24,140 nucleotides of DNA, taken from IMG/VR virus record IMGVR_UViG_3300042869_000408, positions 1 to 24,140 of that record. One strand, given 5' to 3'. The notes beneath the pieces were generated by a model. That model worked only from the letters and a program-made list of their open reading frames with translations, ran no database searches and was not told the DNA's origin. Shown here in pieces: positions 8,559-19,663 of this stretch (positions are counted from its first letter, which is position 1; every line of letters begins with the position of its first letter). Origin of the DNA: a virus. Made by a program: the position numbers and the translations under genes.

Positions 8559-8735
8559 TTATAATTCTTTCTTTTTCTCCAGTTCTTTGTTACCCTTTAC
8601 AGGGGGCTTTGTAAACGGACAATGCCTACATTTGTTGCCACAGCACGTGCCCCTCTGTAAAAAGTAAGCTTCTGTGAAAATCACTTTATCCCCATCGAGA
8701 TAGTAGTGTACGTCTCTTATAAATTCTTGTTTCAT
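8559..8735 (-). CDS. DUF5522-like small Cys-rich protein
   Basis: A 58-residue protein whose ATG overlaps the stop of the ribonucleotide reductase gene (TAATG), so translation is probably coupled. It reads DVHYYLDGDKVIFTEAYFLQ, then RGTCCGNKCRHCPF (29-42), followed by a Lys-rich tail. The motif TE.Y.L.RG.CCGN.CRHCP is what I recall from DUF5522, a family of very short cellular proteins common in Bacteroidota and of unknown function. The four clustered Cys could bind zinc or an Fe-S cluster or act in thiol redox chemistry. Its location right behind a thiol-dependent reductase makes a redox link attractive, but that is inference. Confidence 0.8.
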   Translation of the reverse strand: MKQEFIRDVHYYLDGDKVIFTEAYFLQRGTCCGNKCRHCPFTKPPVKGNKELEKKKEL

Positions 8736-10660
8736 TAGATGTTGATTTCACATGCACCACCTCCGCATGCCTGTATAGCACCAAAATCAACTGAATCATC
8801 CATTTCAGTCACCTTAGTTAAATCAATAGATGTCAATGAGGTGATACGTTTGTTGTATTCTTCTTCAGTAATGTCCTCGAAAGGTGCTTGAGAATAACTA
8901 CCTCCCCAATAGGGCAATACCGACAAACCATTATACACTTCACGATTGTTAAACATCCAATTTCCTACAATTTCCCATTCATTATCTTCTCCCTTCTCAG
9001 ATGGAGTGTAATTAGGTGATCCATCAGGAGTAATACAAGTTGAATATTTTCTACTACTATCAATAGAAATTGTAGCACTTACGTTATGTGTATTATCACC
9101 ATTAATGTGTCCTGGTTTGATCCATTCTAGAGAGAACCTTTTAACACGTTCTAATGTGTCAATAGCTGTTTCTGTCCTGAATATAGATCCTTCTGGGGCT
9201 TTAACAGGAATACGTACACAAACTGTGTCTGTAGGTCTGAGGACATCATCTTCACAGAGCTCTGGATGATTTACCATTAGGTAAGCTGCCATGTCTTCAT
9301 TCTTATTAAACCTCATAGTCCTGAGGTAATAAGGAGCATGCCATGCATGAATACCACTAGCTGTACCTAACACTAGACTGGTTGTACCACTAGGCTTAAT
9401 ACATGTAATCCTAGCTGCCTCATTAGTTCCTATTACATTACTAATCATGCTATTCATCACCTTGGCTACATGTGCTGCTATGTCAAGATCATACTTAAGA
9501 ATCTCACCAGATCCTATTCCTGTCATACCAATTCCCAATAGAGCATCCTTTTGTGTTGTCTTTTGCCAAATTGGACGGAGATAATGAAAATCTGTAAACC
9601 CAGCCTGAAGAGTTCCAAAGAATGCTGCTGTAGCAACACGCTCATTCAAATCCTCTTGACTAGTTACATCGCTTACATTCACCTCACACAGGTTACAGAA
9701 TTGATATGGTCTGAGAGCAATCTCACAACATGGATTAGTTCCCCAATCTTTATTGTTTGTCCAATAGATTCCTGGTTCACCAGATCCACTTGCTTCAATC
9801 CTCTTCCATAGAGCATTGAATTCTTCTTCACCTACCACTCCTCTTTCAAGTACAGCACTGTTATTAGCCCTACCACGCTGCTCATTTAGCATATACCACT
9901 CACCATACTTACATGTTACCATTTCCTCATCATCATGGCTAAACAAAGCAATCATAGCACTTCTGCGGATACCACCAGCAAGTACACTGTTAGCAATATG
10001 ACAAAGCATATCATGACACTCTAGAGGTGTGAGATGTTCCCCTTCTTGTTTCCTATCAAGAATAGCTTGTACGTGAGACAAACAAAGCTTAAGAGGTTCA
10101 GGACCAGGAGCTTTACCACCAGCTGTAATCAATCTAGCACCCTTCTGACGGATGGATCTAAAGTCAAACTCAGGCATAAACTTTCCCTCTAAATAGGCTT
10201 TAAACAGCACTTTTACAGCATCTGCCCATCCCATAATAGAATCTTCCACCAAATAGTGCCTTTTCTTGCCTGTTTTAGTGATTGCAGGAAGTTGTGCTAC
10301 ATGATGCTTCTGTACAGAATATCCAACTCCTGTTCCTCCTAATAGCAAGAACATAGTTTCACTGAAGCTATGTAAGCTATCTATTGGAAGAAAACAACAG
10401 TTATAAATCCTTGAATTGTTCACTTCAGCAGCTGGACCAGCAAATTGAAGAGCTCTCATAGAAGGTAAGATCTTCTTATCCCTGATCATTTTAGCACTAC
10501 TTACAATAGCGTTTTCTAATTTAGGATATTTCTTAATCATCATACCCTGGTACCTGTCTACAATTTCATCCCAGGTTTCTCTGCGTTTTTGTTCTGGCAA
10601 ATATTTTGAATATTTACTAAACACGGTTATTTTACTCAATGCGTCCAATCCTAAATCCAT
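8735..10660 (-). CDS. nrdJ: class II (adenosylcobalamin-dependent) ribonucleotide reductase, monomeric RTPR type
   Basis: A 641-residue enzyme that reduces ribonucleotides to deoxyribonucleotides by a radical made from coenzyme B12, with no need for oxygen. Active-site features: NCC near residues 87-89 (first redox Cys), NPCCEIALRPYQFC (309-322) carrying the thiyl-radical Cys311, Glu313 and second redox Cys322 with the spacing of Cys408/Glu410/Cys419 in the Lactobacillus enzyme, and IKPSGTTS (421-428) in the phosphate-binding loop. The C-terminal CGGGAC (Cys632, Cys637) is the swinging dithiol. It is about 100 residues shorter than the 739-residue Lactobacillus RTPR and has no ATP-cone at the N-terminus. 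There is no NrdB-like gene nearby. It heads its own unit, with the DUF5522-like gene coupled behind. Confidence 0.92.
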   Translation of the reverse strand: MDLGLDALSKITVFSKYSKYLPEQKRRETWDEIVDRYQGMMIKKYPKLENAIVSSAKMIRDKKILPSMRALQFAGPAAEVNNSRIYNCCFLPIDSLHSFSETMFLLLGGTGVGYSVQKHHVAQLPAITKTGKKRHYLVEDSIMGWADAVKVLFKAYLEGKFMPEFDFRSIRQKGARLITAGGKAPGPEPLKLCLSHVQAILDRKQEGEHLTPLECHDMLCHIANSVLAGGIRRSAMIALFSHDDEEMVTCKYGEWYMLNEQRGRANNSAVLERGVVGEEEFNALWKRIEASGSGEPGIYWTNNKDWGTNPCCEIALRPYQFCNLCEVNVSDVTSQEDLNERVATAAFFGTLQAGFTDFHYLRPIWQKTTQKDALLGIGMTGIGSGEILKYDLDIAAHVAKVMNSMISNVIGTNEAARITCIKPSGTTSLVLGTASGIHAWHAPYYLRTMRFNKNEDMAAYLMVNHPELCEDDVLRPTDTVCVRIPVKAPEGSIFRTETAIDTLERVKRFSLEWIKPGHINGDNTHNVSATISIDSSRKYSTCITPDGSPNYTPSEKGEDNEWEIVGNWMFNNREVYNGLSVLPYWGGSYSQAPFEDITEEEYNKRITSLTSIDLTKVTEMDDSVDFGAIQACGGGACEINI

Positions 10661-12103: not shown

Positions 12104-13150
12104 CTACCTCCTTATGTTTACTAATCCATTAGATAAATAATTCTCTCTTGATATATTCCATACATCATTCTCCTTAGCCCATTTCAAATCTTCAATTAGA
12201 CTAGTTACACCTGGATAGTTACGTCCTTTATGCTCAAATCCAGTGAGAGCATCCTGCATGTCGTCTGTATCAAGTGTGTAAATCAAAGGATTAAAATAGT
12301 TTGTACTGTCACAAACGATAAACTTTGGATATTCTACATAATAATCTACAATATCAAGTTCTTCCTTAAACTTAGTACAAGCCACCCAATACAGATAGGC
12401 TTGAATATATGCTCTTCTATAGAGATAGTATTCTTCATAGAATCCTTCTACAGCCCAAACACATTTAAGGTCATAAACTTGTACAGTCTTGTTGGTATGA
12501 TCGACAATCAATTTATCCATCATACTCTTAAACTCAACTCCTCCAACTTTATATCCTTCTATCTGCACTTGATTGAACACTTCCCATCTTGCGCTGTTTA
12601 TAAGATTAACCACTTCTGCAGTGACACTATTAGTCTTCAGTTCTGTCACAATCTTTTCAGAATTTGTGACATCTTCTGTTGTAATCACTGTTAGTCCTTT
12701 GCTTCTTACAGTTCTGATTTCATTGTAATAAATCTCAGCATCTGTTCCTACAAATTTACCAATTACAGCATCAAATTTGATTTTGAAACCGCTTTCAACA
12801 TATGCATCTTTTGCAATTTCCTCAAACTGCCTGGAAATATTACCAAATTCATCTGTAGCATCTTTAGTAAACTTATATAAAGCTTCTACAAATGCAAGCA
12901 TTAGTCCTGTAGGAGCTGTTGCGCAGCTAGACATATAGAACCTATTGTCAAACTCTTCTGGTTCTAATAGCAATGTTTCTACAATTCTACCAATTGTAGC
13001 AGCCTGGGTGTCCTTATCATCAATCTTCTCTCCAAGAACATACTTACGATGGTATTTCTTTCTGTCCATGGAGAACTCTTTTAATGAACTAGAGCTATCC
13101 ATTTCGATAGCCCTGTACATTGCTTCAGTTTTCTTCTTTCCTTCTATCAT
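12104..13150 (-). CDS. PD-(D/E)XK nuclease, RecE/YqaJ-like exonuclease
   Basis: A 348-residue protein, counted from ATG at 13150 (a TTG at 13174 would add 8 residues but overlaps the upstream gene more). The signature is an N-terminal helix region with ATIGRIVETLLLEPEEFDNR (51-70), like the GxxxHxLLLxPxxF segment of RecE/PDDEXK_12 exonucleases. The catalytic strand pair follows: VEFKSMMDKLIVDHTN (205-220, Asp212) and VQVYDLKCV (223-231, Asp227, Lys229), a D-x14-DxK pattern. Family members digest DNA ends for recombination or replication, so it could make 3' tails for RecA. crAss-like phages carry a PD-(D/E)XK gene in the same module type. It overlaps the upstream gene by 26 nt. Confidence 0.82.
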   Translation of the reverse strand: MIEGKKKTEAMYRAIEMDSSSSLKEFSMDRKKYHRKYVLGEKIDDKDTQAATIGRIVETLLLEPEEFDNRFYMSSCATAPTGLMLAFVEALYKFTKDATDEFGNISRQFEEIAKDAYVESGFKIKFDAVIGKFVGTDAEIYYNEIRTVRSKGLTVITTEDVTNSEKIVTELKTNSVTAEVVNLINSARWEVFNQVQIEGYKVGGVEFKSMMDKLIVDHTNKTVQVYDLKCVWAVEGFYEEYYLYRRAYIQAYLYWVACTKFKEELDIVDYYVEYPKFIVCDSTNYFNPLIYTLDTDDMQDALTGFEHKGRNYPGVTSLIEDLKWAKENDVWNISRENYLSNGLVNIRR

Positions 13151-13430
13151 ACTTAATTTGTTTATAAGATTCAATAATACTATTGTACATCATTCTCACT
13201 TCTCTAGGGACATTCTTGAAGAACCATCTACATTCTATTTCATATTCACTTCCTTCAGGATCTATAATCCAGAACTGATGTTTCTTTCCTTGGTATTCTA
13301 TAACTCCTTCATACCAAGTTTCAACAAATGATGGTGTCTTCTCAACAGCAATGCTAATTTCATTCTCTTTTTCGTTCTCTTTGTTCCACATAATGTGGTT
13401 TGGGTCTTCTTGATCGCTATAAATTGCCAT
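13125..13430 (-). CDS. 101-aa hypothetical protein
   Basis: A 101-residue protein counted from ATG at 13430; an in-frame TTG at 13460 would run into the GIY-YIG gene, so ATG is preferred. It begins MAIYSDQEDPNHIMWNKENE, then has beta-like SFVETWYEGVIEYQGKKHQF and WIIDPEGSEYEIECRWFFKN, and a charged helical end. No domain is recognised. It is separated by 17 nt from the GIY-YIG stop and overlaps the exonuclease gene, with which it may be coupled. Confidence 0.65.
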   Translation of the reverse strand: MAIYSDQEDPNHIMWNKENEKENEISIAVEKTPSFVETWYEGVIEYQGKKHQFWIIDPEGSEYEIECRWFFKNVPREVRMMYNSIIESYKQIKYDRRKEEN

Positions 13431-13447
13431 TCTTTTCGTTTTGAGTT

Positions 13448-14308
13448 TTAATATTTCCAAAAATAGCCTCCAGCTGTTTTAGCTATTCCAGATAAACAAT
13501 TTCTAATTGCTCCTCTATGAATACTTAATTCTTCTGAAGGTTGTTTTGTACCATTCCATTCTTTAACTAAAGTGTTATCTAAAGAATATTGATAAACTGT
13601 TTTACAAACTCTTGAGAAAGCATCAATGTTATCTTTTTTATACAATCTCCATTGAAATCCTCCAGCTGTAGAATGTCTCTCTGAAGCAGCATTGTAAATA
13701 TCACAAGGATATTCTTTGATAGCATCTGTAATACTTGGAAAAGACTTTAAGTAATTACCATCTAAATCATATTGATGAACTTCTTTAAAGTGAGCTTTTA
13801 ATCTAGATCCTTTTGTCTTAGCTCTCATTTTTTCAATAGTCTCTTTAGAAAGTTTCTTACCTTTTCTCCATTCAGACATTTTTCTTTTACTTTCTTCAGA
13901 ATGTTTAAATCCTTTATTAGATTTTCTATTTTTAAGTATTTTAGCAATACTCTCCTGAGAAAGCTGCTTTCCTTTATTAGATTCACTAATTTTACGTTTA
14001 GTTTCTTCTGAACAAGGTCTACCTAAAGTACAATCCATACCAGATTCAGGCATAAGATTAGCAAACTCTTTAGATTCTACTATATTAAATTTTTCTGAAT
14101 ATTCTAAAGCAACAGAATTAACTTCTTCTTCTATAATAGAAGAAAAAACTATTTCTGTTTTAATATCTGAAGATGAAAAATTGTGAGCTTTTAAATGTCT
14201 TCTCCAATACTTACCACTTCCTAAATACTTGTAAGGATCCCTTGTTGTAATACCTAAGTATTTCAAACCAATAGGACTTTGTTTAAGGTATAAATAATAT
14301 GTTTTCAT
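13448..14308 (-). CDS. GIY-YIG homing endonuclease with NUMOD3 and NUMOD1-type repeats
   Basis: A 286-residue protein counted from ATG at 14308; a longer TTG-started frame runs into the HNH gene and has no support. Order: GIY-YIG-like nuclease (YYLYLKQSPIGLKYLGITTR, residues 4-23; YLGSGKYWRRHLKAH 28-42; likely catalytic Glu near 69-72, EYSEKF), NUMOD3 repeats at 97-167 (GRPCSEETKRKISES, GFKHSEESKRKMSEW, GKKLSKETIEKM), then two NUMOD1/4-like modules with VHQYDLDGNYLKSFPS (177-192) and VYQYSLDNTLVKEW (238-251), each ending AGG(F/Y)xW. It cuts DNA to spread its own gene. It carries its own near-consensus promoter and is probably translated from a leaderless mRNA. Confidence 0.9.
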   Translation of the reverse strand: MKTYYLYLKQSPIGLKYLGITTRDPYKYLGSGKYWRRHLKAHNFSSSDIKTEIVFSSIIEEEVNSVALEYSEKFNIVESKEFANLMPESGMDCTLGRPCSEETKRKISESNKGKQLSQESIAKILKNRKSNKGFKHSEESKRKMSEWRKGKKLSKETIEKMRAKTKGSRLKAHFKEVHQYDLDGNYLKSFPSITDAIKEYPCDIYNAASERHSTAGGFQWRLYKKDNIDAFSRVCKTVYQYSLDNTLVKEWNGTKQPSEELSIHRGAIRNCLSGIAKTAGGYFWKY

Positions 14309-14312
14309 ATGA

Positions 14313-14344
14313 CAAATATAACAATAAAAGAGTAAACTACCAAA
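14313..14344 (-). promoter_or_regulatory. promoter of the GIY-YIG gene, leaderless
   Basis: On the minus strand, TTTG (14341-14344), exactly 20 nt, then TATATTTG (14313-14320). Only four bases (TCAT) lie between the -7 box and the ATG at 14308, so transcription should begin at or next to the start codon. This also fixes the start of the GIY-YIG gene. Confidence 0.8.
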
Positions 14345-14348
14345 TATT

Positions 14349-14750
14349 TTATAATCTACTTTCTCTTTCTTTAGCTGTCTTTTTGTCATGACAAATTGAA
14401 CATAATATTTGTAAACCTTCAACTTCTACAAACAGTCGTTCAACAAACCCTGGTAGGTCATTAGCACAATTCAAGCTTCCTGCAGGAAGCACATGGTCAA
14501 CGTTAATGTTCTTCTCAGCAAACCATTTCTTACAGCTATTACATTGATATTCAAACTTTTGACGCTTATTAGGACCTTTATACGTTCTCTTAGCATTTAG
14601 TTTGCATTGTGTAATAGGCTTCCACCATCTACTCTTTTGTCTAAGACCACTTCTTATAAAACTCCAGAACGCACTCTCTGTCATAGTGCCATTGTTCCTA
14701 GTCTTAGGTGCTGCATTTGCTCTGGGCTTTCTTACTGTTTTCTTCCTCAT
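14349..14750 (-). CDS. HNH endonuclease
   Basis: A 133-residue protein from ATG at 14750; a TTG two codons upstream also fits but ATG is preferred. A very basic N-terminus (MRKKTVRKPRANAAPKTRNN) precedes the zinc-held HNH core: YQCNSCKKWF (68-77, Cys70, Cys73), NINVDHVLPAGS (81-92, Asp85, His86), then LQILCSICHDKKT (113-125, Cys117, Cys120, His121). This is the standard CxxC-DH-CxxCHxxK arrangement. Family members nick DNA in homing or packaging; here a small free-standing HNH protein lies between rIIB and a GIY-YIG gene, so a mobile nuclease is likely. A terminator and promoter directly upstream give it its own transcript. Confidence 0.85.
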   Translation of the reverse strand: MRKKTVRKPRANAAPKTRNNGTMTESAFWSFIRSGLRQKSRWWKPITQCKLNAKRTYKGPNKRQKFEYQCNSCKKWFAEKNINVDHVLPAGSLNCANDLPGFVERLFVEVEGLQILCSICHDKKTAKERESRL

Positions 14751-14769
14751 AATCAATGATTTATAAAAA

Positions 14770-14814: not shown

Positions 14815-16284
14815 TTACTTGATTATATTCACCCTGTTAGAGATGGAATACTTCATCTCTTCCAAAGAAGCAACGATGTTCTCAATCTGAACATGTGTCA
14901 TTGCTGGAATGTTAAACTGATGCTTAGAAGCTTCTAACACAAATCCTCCTTTAACCTTCTCAGCCAAGTTTTCCAATTCGTGAATTGCGAAAGCCTCATC
15001 AAGCTCAAGAGTGTCAAAATCAAGATCGTGTAGAATTTCTGTAGACTCTTCACGAGATACAGTCATAATAGGAAGATATTCATAACACCTACCCTTAGCT
15101 TCACCAATACCTACAACCTTCATAGGATTGATAAGGATAAGAACAGACTGGTCACCACATCCTACATAATTAATCTCATCAGCTGTGAAATGCAATCCTG
15201 CATGTGCACAATCTGCTGTAGACCAATTACACTCCTGTGGAGGCATGTTTACCACTTGTCCTACACGAATGTCAAATGTCCTTGTGTGAGCATCTGTAAA
15301 CCTATTCTCATGCCTATTAGGAAGATCTAGATAGAGTTCTGTGAGATTACCAATTTTCTCTCCATGATTAATTTGATTCATGTTGTCGCATTGACCTACA
15401 CCATCACAAAACTCACACACAGAATCTTCATCGTTTTCACAACTCCAATCAATTCCTTGACCATCACAATCCTGACATTCTACTAGTTCAGTTTCATAAA
15501 GATCATCCTCATGTACCAATTTATATTCACAATTCTCAAGAAACACAGTGTACTTATCAGGACTCTTCTTCCATACAGCTTTCACTTTATTATAAGCATT
15601 GCTTACAAATTGTACAAGCTCTACGCTACCACGTAATGTAACTACATTCCTAAGAGCTACAAAGAAACCTTGTTTTGTAATCCTGAAACTATTCTTATTC
15701 AGGAAGTCATACAAATCATTAGCTACTTCTGCCCTAGGATTGAGGCAACACCACATAAAGAATCTCTTAAGAGCTTGATACTCTTGATCATCTGTTACAT
15801 CATTGTATGGATCTACATCATAGAGGTCTACCAATTCAATGAACTTCTCTACAAGAAGCTGTGGCATAGTTCTACCAGTTCCAGCCAGCTTAACAGAATT
15901 ACCTTCTATTTCAAAATCAGCTAGTCCTTCTAGCCTTTTGATTCCTTGCTGAACAGCTTTAATCCTAGCAATCTCTGCTTCTTGCTTTCTCTTCTCTTCC
16001 ATTACAGTTGAATCAGCACAAATACTGTACAAAGAACCTTCTGTCCTAGCATTCACTGCCGCATAATAATCATCCTTTGTAGCATTTGGTTTACTCAATA
16101 CAGATCCATCATTAAGAACAATTGTTAGTGAATCATTTACTAACTTAACATTCAAATAAGGCTTCTTGTCTAAATCAACGCCTAACTCTTTCTTTAAAAT
16201 CTCATTCTTGAGCTGTTGTTCTTCAATAACCAAGTTTTCTAACTCTGACTGTCTTTTGAACCATGATAGCGAAAAAATACTCAT
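14815..16284 (-). CDS. rIIB: rIIB-like protein with inserted DnaJ-type zinc finger
   Basis: A 489-residue protein. The rIIB identity rests on the middle and C-terminal part: EYQALKRFFMWCCLNPRAEV and LYDFLNKNSFRITKQGFFVA (168-210), then VGQVVNMPP (341-349), CAHAGLHF (359-366), ILINPMKVVGI and GRCYEYLPI, which follow the T4 rIIB order (GKVVKMP, CSRGLHVC, VKVHPRDVVSI, CQYEVV). Between the two blocks lies CQDCDGQG (270-277) and CEFCDGVG (290-297), a CxxCxGxG pair as in DnaJ zinc fingers, absent from T4 rIIB. The N-terminus is a coiled-coil-like helix (residues 13-35). In T4, rIIA and rIIB protect infected cells, for instance against superinfection and the lambda Rex system. It is downstream of rIIA. 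Confidence 0.82.
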   Translation of the reverse strand: MSIFSLSWFKRQSELENLVIEEQQLKNEILKKELGVDLDKKPYLNVKLVNDSLTIVLNDGSVLSKPNATKDDYYAAVNARTEGSLYSICADSTVMEEKRKQEAEIARIKAVQQGIKRLEGLADFEIEGNSVKLAGTGRTMPQLLVEKFIELVDLYDVDPYNDVTDDQEYQALKRFFMWCCLNPRAEVANDLYDFLNKNSFRITKQGFFVALRNVVTLRGSVELVQFVSNAYNKVKAVWKKSPDKYTVFLENCEYKLVHEDDLYETELVECQDCDGQGIDWSCENDEDSVCEFCDGVGQCDNMNQINHGEKIGNLTELYLDLPNRHENRFTDAHTRTFDIRVGQVVNMPPQECNWSTADCAHAGLHFTADEINYVGCGDQSVLILINPMKVVGIGEAKGRCYEYLPIMTVSREESTEILHDLDFDTLELDEAFAIHELENLAEKVKGGFVLEASKHQFNIPAMTHVQIENIVASLEEMKYSISNRVNIIK

Positions 16285-16335: not shown

Positions 16336-18621
16336 TTAAGATAATTCTTCTACATCCACTGATGCTTCTGCAACCACTTCATCATTCAATTTGATGTTGT
16401 AGTGTTTCCAGTCAACACGCTGTTTGTAATACTTGAAGAGATCACGAACTGCATCATTAACACCATTGCTATTAGACCCATATCTGCTCATCATACCAAA
16501 CATAGGTTTAAGGAATGGAAGCATTGCAAACACATCTTTCACTTCATTATAAACAGAATAAACGGAAAGGTCAAATAGATTTTTCTCTTCAGCCAACTTA
16601 ATGATAGATTGATATAAAGAATTATCACCGCTTAGATAATATTTCTTTTTGTAACTATCCAACATCAACATCTTCTTATAGAGTTCTGTTGATATGTCAC
16701 CAATTTTATCTATTCTATTGAACACTTCTGCGTAATCTTTAGTCAGCTCATTAATCAAATAAGCTGTAGCTGCTCTTTTAAAAACTATGTGATCTCCTTC
16801 CATAAATTTGTCTATATGTATCCAGTTATGTAAATCTATTTCTTCCATGCGCTTAAGTTCTCTTTCAGAAAGAACCATGAATCTAGTGCTATGAAATGGA
16901 AATACAGAAAACATCTTATCAAATGTAGTTTGATGTGTAGAGTTTCCGTAAACCAGCAAATAAGGATTCCTATGGGCATTCTTCATTTGAAACACGGTGG
17001 GAACAAATTTAGCATGCTGACCATATACAGCTCTCTCTAGAGCTGTAGCCACCTTACCTGTCAATTCACCCTCAAGTTTCTTCCTTCTTTCTTTAGGACC
17101 AGCAACACCATTGGTGAAAGAAACCTTCTTCTTGCTATCAATGAATGCTTGATGAACTTCGAGAGTGTCAAGATTGATAAAGTTAGCTGTAACACGCCTA
17201 ACCATCTCCTGGAACTCCTTAATTACATTTCTCCATTCACTCTTTTGAAACTTGTTAAGCTGAAGAATCTTGTAATAGTTCTCATATCCTGCAAGAGCCT
17301 CTTTATCAGTTCCCAATTTGAAACTCTTTTCCTTCTTAACAATATACTCAGTGTATCCTCTTTTATTAATACTCTTCAGGTATTCTTTCTTAATACCACT
17401 AAGTCTATCTGAATAAACATATATCTTCTCACCATACCTCCTAGATAAGTCCCAATAAGAGCTAGCTTTACAGAATCTTCCTCTAGACACCTCATGTTTC
17501 ATTACATATTCACCAAACATGGATTCCCTGATGCGATTGTAATACTCAACAGTTTGATAATACACACCATCTACCTTTGGAGATGCAAAACCTATTGTAG
17601 CATACTTGGCAAAATAGGAAACATTCAAACCATTTTTACCAAACAAGTTAAGGTTTCTATCTGAGTTACGGAAGTGCTCCATTGCTTTCCATATATCGGT
17701 TGTATCTTGTACATTTTCGTTATACTTCTCAATAAAGAAATTAGCTACACTCTGTAACTTATTCATTATCACAGCTTTAGCTTCTGTAGTGTAACGAAGA
17801 GATTCTCTGTTTGGTGTAGGAAACAAACCATCTGTCAAACTAAATCTAAGACCAACAGGAAAATAGATAGTGTCTATTCCAAGTTTAACAAAATCAATAG
17901 GATAGTAGACATTGTCCAGACAGATGTGCAAATTACTATTTGCAGACAGAGGACTCCATTGAAAATGATCATGCCTCATGATGGTGAAATCATTATCTAT
18001 ACCATCAACATTGAAATATACATTCTCAAAATAAGCCAATTGCTCTTTAATCTTAGTTACAAAGCTGCTTCTGTCATAGAACCTAACAGGAACAATCACC
18101 TTTACACCATTCTTTTGGTCTGTAGAGGTTTCATAGAGAAGATCGATTGTGTTTACATCTTCTCCTTCATACATCATGTATTTACGTTCTACGCCATTCT
18201 TTCTACACACAAAATAGAAGCTGGAGCAATAGGCAAGAGGAGCTTTAAAGCCCAAGCCCATCATACCTAACTCGTTGGCTGAATTACGCTTTGTACTCTT
18301 ACCATACTTACTAATGATGTTCTTTACATCTTCTGCATCTAGACCAATACCAAAATCTTCTACAGAGAACTCATAATTGCCATCTTTGTTTGCACCAAAA
18401 GATACAATAATTGGATCTGTGGTCCCAGCTCTTCTGTGACTGTCCAGTGCATTAGATGCACACTCACGGACAGTGGAGCCTATATCATCTGAATACAGAT
18501 TCTTACTTAACATCTGCATCAAAATTTGAGCAGAATCTAAGTCAAGGGACATACCAATTGAGTCTTGTGTTTGTTCTCCTTCTTGAAGAACTACAGCTTG
18601 TGTTTGTTTTTCTAAGATCAT
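16336..18621 (-). CDS. rIIA: rIIA-like GHKL ATPase
   Basis: A 761-residue protein, close to the length of T4 rIIA. The N-terminal 200 residues form a GHKL ATP-binding domain: the N-box STVRECASNALDSHRRAG (49-66; Glu53, Asn57), the G1 box VEDFGIGLD (87-95, Asp89), the G2 box LGMMGLGFKAPLAY (118-131) and the strand GVKVIVPVR. T4 rIIA has the same order (VVRELITNMIDAHA, RDFGPGM, GGFGLGSKSPF). The remainder is a large helical C-terminal part without recognised domains. It partners with rIIB, encoded just downstream, in functions known genetically in T4 as rapid lysis and exclusion control. Its ATG overlaps the preceding stop (ATGA). Confidence 0.9.
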   Translation of the reverse strand: MILEKQTQAVVLQEGEQTQDSIGMSLDLDSAQILMQMLSKNLYSDDIGSTVRECASNALDSHRRAGTTDPIIVSFGANKDGNYEFSVEDFGIGLDAEDVKNIISKYGKSTKRNSANELGMMGLGFKAPLAYCSSFYFVCRKNGVERKYMMYEGEDVNTIDLLYETSTDQKNGVKVIVPVRFYDRSSFVTKIKEQLAYFENVYFNVDGIDNDFTIMRHDHFQWSPLSANSNLHICLDNVYYPIDFVKLGIDTIYFPVGLRFSLTDGLFPTPNRESLRYTTEAKAVIMNKLQSVANFFIEKYNENVQDTTDIWKAMEHFRNSDRNLNLFGKNGLNVSYFAKYATIGFASPKVDGVYYQTVEYYNRIRESMFGEYVMKHEVSRGRFCKASSYWDLSRRYGEKIYVYSDRLSGIKKEYLKSINKRGYTEYIVKKEKSFKLGTDKEALAGYENYYKILQLNKFQKSEWRNVIKEFQEMVRRVTANFINLDTLEVHQAFIDSKKKVSFTNGVAGPKERRKKLEGELTGKVATALERAVYGQHAKFVPTVFQMKNAHRNPYLLVYGNSTHQTTFDKMFSVFPFHSTRFMVLSERELKRMEEIDLHNWIHIDKFMEGDHIVFKRAATAYLINELTKDYAEVFNRIDKIGDISTELYKKMLMLDSYKKKYYLSGDNSLYQSIIKLAEEKNLFDLSVYSVYNEVKDVFAMLPFLKPMFGMMSRYGSNSNGVNDAVRDLFKYYKQRVDWKHYNIKLNDEVVAEASVDVEELS

Positions 18622-18946: not shown

Positions 18947-19663
18947 TTAAAATGGCACATCATAGAGCCACATGATTTGATAATTGTTGTTGTCTTTAAG
19001 CACTTTGTTCACCATACCAAACTTTCCTTCTGTGTCCCATTCAGATTGTTTATATGCTGCAGATGCTGGATGAGACAAAACAAAATTCCAAGCAAATGGA
19101 CTTGTATATTTCTCATACTTACTAGCATCCTTTCCTAAGAATATTGTTGGTACACCTGTAGGCGTAACAATCTCCTCTAGAACATATTTGGTAAATGGTT
19201 CCCAGATGTCTATATGACTTCCTGCTTTATTCATTTCTGTCGTAAGAGCAGCATTGAACATAAGAACACCTTGCTTAGCTAAATAACTTACATCTGCTAG
19301 CTTCTGATATTTGAGATTGAGTCCATCAAATAATTCTTTCTCTACACCTTCATAGAACTTCTCTAGAGAAGGTTGTAGTTTACCTGTATTACTACAGCCC
19401 ATAAGCAGACCATCTGCTACAGGATTTCCATCTTTAAATGTGTGATAGGGACACATACCCATCATCACCACCTTCAAATCATCCAATGAGGTTTCTTTAA
19501 AACATCTATAAGTAACAGAAGAAGAAGGTGCAATTTTCTTGCCCCTCTTTCCCTCTGTCTTTAGATATTCATAGATCTTATCGCACTCCTCACTTTCAAT
19601 AAAAGGTTGCATTTTACTGTGCCAACTCTCGTGAAACTGATCTCTGAATAAATCCCATTTCAT
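18947..19663 (-). CDS. uracil-DNA glycosylase-like protein with altered catalytic motif
   Basis: A 238-residue protein of the UNG fold family. Motif A is VVMMGMCPYHTF (65-76), where UNG has GQDPYHGP: Gly69, Pro72, Tyr73 and His74 are kept but the catalytic Asp is Cys71 and the Gln is Met70. ADGLLMGCSNTGKLQPSL (83-100) matches AHGLAFSV...PSL. GVLMFNAALTTEMNKAGSH (132-150) matches the GVLLLN..LTV....SH segment, and FLGKDA (175-180) the LWG.xA segment. Motif B is SHPASAAY (197-204) in place of HPSPLS, keeping His198. UNG removes uracil from DNA in base-excision repair. This version may be weak, specialised or a binder. It lies 2 nt after the DUF932-like gene. Confidence 0.82.
   Translation of the reverse strand: MKWDLFRDQFHESWHSKMQPFIESEECDKIYEYLKTEGKRGKKIAPSSSVTYRCFKETSLDDLKVVMMGMCPYHTFKDGNPVADGLLMGCSNTGKLQPSLEKFYEGVEKELFDGLNLKYQKLADVSYLAKQGVLMFNAALTTEMNKAGSHIDIWEPFTKYVLEEIVTPTGVPTIFLGKDASKYEKYTSPFAWNFVLSHPASAAYKQSEWDTEGKFGMVNKVLKDNNNYQIMWLYDVPF

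Follow-up and report, generated by a model that had tools for sequence, protein, structure and literature searches.

The rII gene pair has been under study since the 1950s, and RexAB is the known E. coli example of an exclusion factor that it counters. The products of the two genes, rIIA and rIIB, counteract RexAB exclusion (PMC11879866, PMC9391042), the same holds for divergent rII pairs from several groups of phages (PMC11879866), and the specificity of the rII-Rex interaction has been described as unclear (PMC11879866). Canonical rIIB proteins, represented by T4 rIIB and by the families phrog_609, phrog_11221 and phrog_36818, have an N-terminal beta domain and a helical block, display the motif ITxxGxFxA(x)K/R(x)V and a core of the form GxVV...GLH...NPxxVV...KxR..Y, and have rIIA directly upstream. 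All of these features are shared by the phage clade described here, whereas the canonical proteins lack the insertion, with its exchangeable tip, that occupies residues 215-325 in our representative. Two families of zinc-binding proteins offer comparisons for that insertion. The DnaJ central domain (PF00684) carries its CxxCxGxG knuckles in a beta hairpin and has two zinc sites, and DnaJ combines four such knuckles with a J domain. Anti-TRAP (RtpA, PF15777), a stand-alone protein of 53 aa that forms trimers and has a helix at its C-terminus, has two knuckles of the CxxCxGxG type and one zinc site. It acts by protein-protein contact on the RNA-binding surface of TRAP, where its zinc-binding arms dock (PMC11255114).

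The window analysed here is the whole 24,140-nucleotide stretch of IMG/VR record IMGVR_UViG_3300042869_000408, a 24-kb fragment of a freshwater virus related to the gut crAss phages. The fragment itself is without terminase and portal genes, and its primase matches mostly crAss-like phages; its assignment as Crassvirales-related comes through longer relative contigs of about 107-118 kb (a clade of ~110-kb crAss-related phages), in which homologues of the cr116_1 TerL (E 1e-14 to 1e-20) and portal (E 1e-38 to 1e-45) are found in 14/14 cases. A scan of genome contigs for a host link gave no relative. On the minus strand, at 14815..16284, the window encodes a 489-aa rIIB homologue with an ATG start (P0001), which matches phrog_609 RIIB at E=5e-16, phrog_36818 at E=1e-7 and phrog_11221 at E=6e-6; these PHROG families cover the C-terminal core and helical block and are matched in all or nearly all of 50 relatives. 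An rIIA homologue of 761 aa (16336..18621, minus strand; phrog_612 RIIA, E=1e-58) with a GHKL-type ATPase domain at residues 45-148 (PF13589/PF02518) lies 51 nt upstream, and rIIA adjoins rIIB in 76/76 sequences with both genes resolved. Among annotated proteins the best relative comes from cr116_1, a crAss-like phage (Pamirivirus); its rIIB matches P0001 in two collinear blocks, 49-214 and 326-477 (BLASTP, E=4e-13 and 7e-7). The two phages share terminase and portal ancestry, rIIA upstream and a uracil-DNA glycosylase nearby, but the cr116_1 protein is 320 aa long and has neither the insertion nor the knuckles.

P0001 is a genuine rIIB, the partner of the adjacent rIIA ATPase in a crAss-related phage. 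An rIIB-like identity had been proposed in a preliminary description of the sequence, which placed the likeness to T4 in the C-terminal part and named rIIB similarity outside the zinc finger as one test of its proposal. Profile comparison found such similarity: 50 clade relatives align with 10 canonical rIIBs (T4 included) at a probability of 99.8% and E=4.6e-28 (hhalign), with residues 49-469 matched around one large gap, so that the C-terminal likeness stands while its restriction to that part does not, the N-terminal part aligning too. BLASTP of P0001 against T4 rIIB returned two collinear blocks, 182-214 and 329-403. Residues 41-92 (16009..16164, minus strand) form a KTSC-resembling beta domain, whose counterpart in the hhalign comparison is the beta domain at the N-terminus of canonical rIIBs, and which gives a modest match to the KTSC protein 7x8c (VIA-align Z 5.2, rmsd 2.4 Å, 54 residues). 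The conserved helical block spans residues 172-214 (15643..15771, minus strand), is collinear with T4 rIIB 185-217, contains invariant columns and ends in ITKQGFFVALRNV. The conserved C-terminal core, delimited by the phrog_609 match at residues 326-414 (15043..15309, minus strand), reads ENRFTDAHTRTFDIRVGQVV...GLHF...INPMKVVGI...KGRCYEY and has a mean pairwise identity of 81% within the clade.

Structure prediction of rIIB alone, which the same description had put forward as a check, agrees with this identity. The AF2 model reached a pLDDT of 87.9 and a pTM of 0.78 (100 aligned sequences) and gave 30 viral fold matches at E<=0.001, the informatively named ones nearly all of rIIB type and with TM by target up to 0.70, although the input alignment contained canonical rIIBs and this fold evidence is therefore not fully independent of sequence homology. 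A run with clade sequences only had a mean pLDDT of 59 and left the core unmodelled, and was replaced by the run with 55 distant rIIBs. The top BFVD match, A0A516MIR7 (486 aa), may be a more distant rIIB bearing an insertion. In a phmmer search of the PDB the whole of P0001 had no match, and PDB fold matches beyond the KTSC-like N-terminus were weak and were set aside.

The alignment of rIIB profiles is broken by one gap, which delimits a clade-specific arm of ~111 residues, 215-325 (15310..15642, minus strand), between the helical block and the C-terminal core. The preliminary description had placed an insertion just here, with the helical block before it and the GQVV/GLHF block after it, and T4 rIIB does lack the zinc module, as claimed; what it is missing, however, is the entire segment 215-325 and not the module alone. 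The interval from the helical-block motif to CSxGLH is exactly 34 residues in 81/81 of the canonical rIIBs from IMG/VR whose motifs could be measured, and 101-162 residues (median 146) in this clade. No CxxC pair occurs at the position of the insertion in ten annotated rIIBs of diverse phages (T4, N4 and cr116_1 included), and tblastn with the insertion alone against 50,697 phage records found no annotated phage carrying it, all matches being unrelated or due to chance (homing endonucleases and Q-like proteins, at an E-value of 0.1 or weaker). Viral-contig scans queried with single canonical rIIBs returned few loci. The insertion is predicted to fold as a helix and stacked beta hairpins: in the AF2 model, a helix (222-236) is followed by a first hairpin (strands 245-250 and 253-258), by a second hairpin that carries the knuckles at its tip (strands 263-269, 278-281, 286-289 and 298-304), and by the GNLTELYLDLPN strand and a helix, which return the insertion to the rIIB core. 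Mean pLDDT across residues 241-320 is 90-97 per block of ten, and the knuckle hairpin is modelled at 90-96.

The two CxxCxGxG knuckles reported within residues 270-297 are present as described, CQDCDGQG at 270-277 (15454..15477, minus strand) and CEFCDGVG at 290-297 (15394..15417, minus strand), and no ORF of the window other than rIIB contains this motif. The knuckles recur within the clade, where 70 of 88 distinct rIIBs have all four Cys and the paired-knuckle site is absent from 18/88; outside it, the 50,697 phage records yielded no annotated protein with the insertion. Among the finger-bearing relatives, both Cys are kept in 70/70 for either knuckle, and the two glycines in 66/70 and 64/70 (knuckle 1) and in 67/70 and 68/70 (knuckle 2), while the linker between the knuckles varies from 6 to 28 residues. 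Invariant Cys around so variable a linker form the pattern of a metal site and not of a chance motif. We infer that a single structural zinc ion, held by the four Cys, stiffens an acidic hairpin and would thus serve as scaffolding and not in chemistry. Three rIIBs show possible zinc-loss intermediates or alternative sites: L023 (DCDCH...CDDC), L036 (CLEEC...CFDDC) and L056 (CECY...NCDEH). CxxCxGxG also occurs outside rIIB on the contigs of L008 (G001:49178-49303) and L010 (G014:47127-47213), the first of which carries a fingerless rIIB.

Between the knuckles, residues 278-289 (15418..15453, minus strand), IDWSCENDEDSV, make up the acidic hairpin tip. Across the clade the net acidic fraction of the linker has a median of 0.47 per residue, compared with 0.06 for whole proteins, and an acidic loop is kept in 16/18 of the rIIBs that are without the zinc site (net 0.19 to 0.44). 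The remaining two of these 18, L071 and L077, have almost no tip and are without both knuckles and acidic loop, indicating that neither feature is essential. The charge, as read from sequence, speaks for protein contact, or for nucleic-acid mimicry, as the business of the tip.

The fusion is not confined to a single gene but characterizes an entire phage clade, in which it was gained or lost at least 9-11 times and has been exchanged by recombination. Mapped on a tree that omits the insert columns, the zinc trait requires 11 changes, at least 9 of them on well-supported branches; the count was the same with an outgroup added, whose branch is too long, so that the changes are counted without direction (gain versus loss). 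Between a base and a core that hardly vary, the tip is hypervariable, and it is present or absent in near-identical rIIBs: the core of the window rIIB is 91% identical to that of L004, in which the knuckles are absent, and L066 and L079 have opposite zinc states with cores 93% identical. In L034 the core is 97% identical to that of the fingerless L024, while the tip most resembles that of the L061 group, whose core shares 69% identity with that of L034. The best exchanged segment in L034 is residues 216-326, that is, the insertion (0/2000 shuffles), and the edges drawn by profile alignment (215-325) and by recombination thus agree. L066, L102 and L045 give a signal like that of L034, again at 0/2000 shuffles each, a figure that is not a corrected probability since the triplets were chosen after inspection.

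A control scan of the whole rIIB in 60-residue windows, with a criterion of a close relative at >=88% identity outside the window and <=55% inside it, found such discordance in 23/52 and 14/47 rows at the two tip windows. Beyond the tip, discordant rows numbered 0 in twelve other windows and 4/38 in a single C-terminal one. A second measure counted rows for which the nearest neighbour within the window was distant elsewhere; these numbered 13 and 11 in the tip windows, 6 in the window just before the tip and 0-3 in the remainder. The scoring of gaps as mismatches raises the first measure at the tip and affects the second less. Chimeric assembly may account for a swap in any one contig but is unlikely as the source of the swaps as a whole, given that the discordance is seen repeatedly, in many independent contigs, and is concentrated at one segment. 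The rIIA of L034 is 93% identical to that of L024 and 54% to that of L061, and the exchange of tips therefore does not include rIIA. Tips are exchanged between lineages by recombination, and the rIIB core and rIIA stay put.

An rIIB with a zinc-knuckle insertion is a new form of a known family, and its evolution is unusually modular; in the literature searched, which left subscription journals and preprints outside, we found no rIIB described as carrying a zinc module. The tip probably docks on a variable protein partner. Our preferred reading, held tentatively, is of an rIIB with a modular protruding tip, in which one structural zinc site braces an acidic hairpin for docking on a host-variable protein. 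The arm would present the hairpin tip to a partner differing from host to host, a candidate being a prophage- or host-encoded exclusion factor to be neutralized by the rII pair; zinc would pin the hairpin structurally, without a catalytic part, and swapping of tips would retarget one conserved rIIA/rIIB engine. An anti-exclusion function for the present pair would follow by homology with the rII biology of E. coli phages. It is possible, with somewhat less confidence, that the acidic tip, for which zinc is optional, is swapped in order to retarget rIIA/rIIB counter-defence to different exclusion systems. The preliminary description had imagined a new sensor for the rII system, which we hypothesize, more narrowly, to be a protein-docking tip.

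The main rival to a docking tip is that the tip is a dispensable, tolerated surface ornament, with knuckles that merely stabilize a loop and a diversity that reflects relaxed constraint and ordinary homologous recombination with its anchors in conserved codons on either side. Relaxed constraint on a surface loop can also yield fast divergence and exchange, and the conserved flanks of the insertion (84% and 78-81% identity) would favour recombination anywhere within those flanks. The zinc site has been lost repeatedly with little other change, and the near absence of a tip in L071 and L077 fits as well. Yet the four Cys are invariant in 70 rIIBs whose linkers and neighbouring residues vary freely, and their loss is all-or-none where drift should leave many half-lost sites; the intermediates are few, L023 and perhaps L036 and L056. 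The all-or-none behaviour of the Cys, together with an acidic character that survives zinc loss, argues against mere ornament, which we consider unlikely.

The insertion might instead regulate the interaction or oligomerization of rIIA and rIIB, with the tip as an internal contact with rIIA. The two genes are always adjacent and their products are expected to act together, in keeping with such a role, but tips are swapped without rIIA, as the L034 comparison above shows. Nor does any rIIA column cleanly separate finger-bearing from fingerless phages: among rIIA columns no clear site tracks the zinc trait, the best mutual information being 0.52 bit and spread over many residues. An internal contact of this kind is accordingly improbable.

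The nature of the knuckle module bears on a third possibility, that the zinc tip recruits the host's DnaK or binds unfolded proteins, as the cysteine-rich domain of DnaJ does. The finger had been called DnaJ-type, and in its CxxCxGxG signature it is: among solved structures the insert profile best matches the DnaJ zinc finger 1exk (E=6.5e-4), ahead of UvrA and BSD2 and of Anti-TRAP and antitermination protein Q, the last two at weak E-values. A full DnaJ domain is not present, since P0001 has half of one, two knuckles forming one site in place of four CxxCxGxG repeats. P0001 scores 12.2 bits against PF00684 (E 0.24), below the curated cut-off of 32.7, and no relative among the 14 contigs exceeds that cut-off. 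At E<=0.1, DnaJ_CXXCXGXG (PF00684) is matched by 30/50 relatives and Anti-TRAP (PF15777) by 22/50, so that the Anti-TRAP model fits about as well as the DnaJ model, and the DnaJA3 zinc finger 2ctt appears among PDB fold matches only at E=5.3 over 37 columns. A chaperone-like role would sit well with the CxxCxGxG spacing, with the rank of DnaJ among solved structures and with the GHKL/HSP90-like ATPase domain of rIIA. Against it, no J domain (PF00226) is found in P0001 or in the 14 long relative contigs, rIIBs without the finger persist in an unchanged gene context, and the hydrophobic face of the DnaJ domain is not evident in the acidic tip; we regard this role as quite improbable.

The paired CxxC with conserved glycines places the insertion among two-knuckle CxxCxGxG modules of the Anti-TRAP and Q-like kind. 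It does not belong to the Anti-TRAP family itself, whose members are stand-alone small trimers with a C-terminal helix, unlike a module internal to a 489-aa rIIB. Anti-TRAP, with its two knuckles and one zinc site (the latter predicted in rIIB), is the nearest mechanistic parallel, a likeness that carries no claim of descent. That the tip binds DNA or RNA, as the preliminary description had also suggested, for instance phage nucleoid DNA or a transcript, is highly improbable: similar two-knuckle sites exist in antitermination protein Q and UvrA, and phrog_6060 'anti-termination protein Q-like' is matched in 4/50 members, but the strong acidity of the tip (linker net charge about -0.47 per residue, fingerless versions acidic too) argues against direct binding of nucleic acid, and such a surface could mimic nucleic acid instead.

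Natural rIIBs that differ almost only in a swappable tip constitute a ready-made natural experiment, and the tip marks where specificity may lie. Natural mutant pairs with and without the zinc site are available in the window and L004, L066 and L079, and L034 and L024.

Several further observations concern the rII genes and their surroundings. The phrog_609 profile spans 1055 positions, its start matching rIIA and its end rIIB, and the protein Q56C47 (1049 aa) of phage RB43 is annotated RIIA-RIIB, indicating that a natural fusion of the rII pair exists. Directly downstream of rIIB and outside that feature, an HNH endonuclease-like ORF (14349..14756, minus strand; phrog_1985, E=8e-26) has relatives in 79 scanned sequences and therefore looks resident rather than mobile. 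Two homing endonucleases (NUMOD1/NUMOD3, phrog_314), at 13448-14422 and 161-835, are sporadic, the first having relatives in only 14 of the scanned sequences. ORFs with TTG starts overlap at 13125-13460 and 12104-13174, which brings their start codons, or a mobile insertion, into question. No Rfam match was found in the window. Upstream of rIIA, a divergent uracil-DNA glycosylase (18947-19663; phrog_12143, E=2e-32) lies in a crAss-like gene neighbourhood. Finally, a ribonucleotide reductase of 641 aa (8735-10660; phrog_367, E=3e-117) aligns from end to end, at ~55% identity, with proteins from Microcystis phage Mel-JY01, from a Vibrio phage and from an Oceanospirillum phage, and because these matches are far closer than any other in the window, its sequence suggests horizontal transfer.
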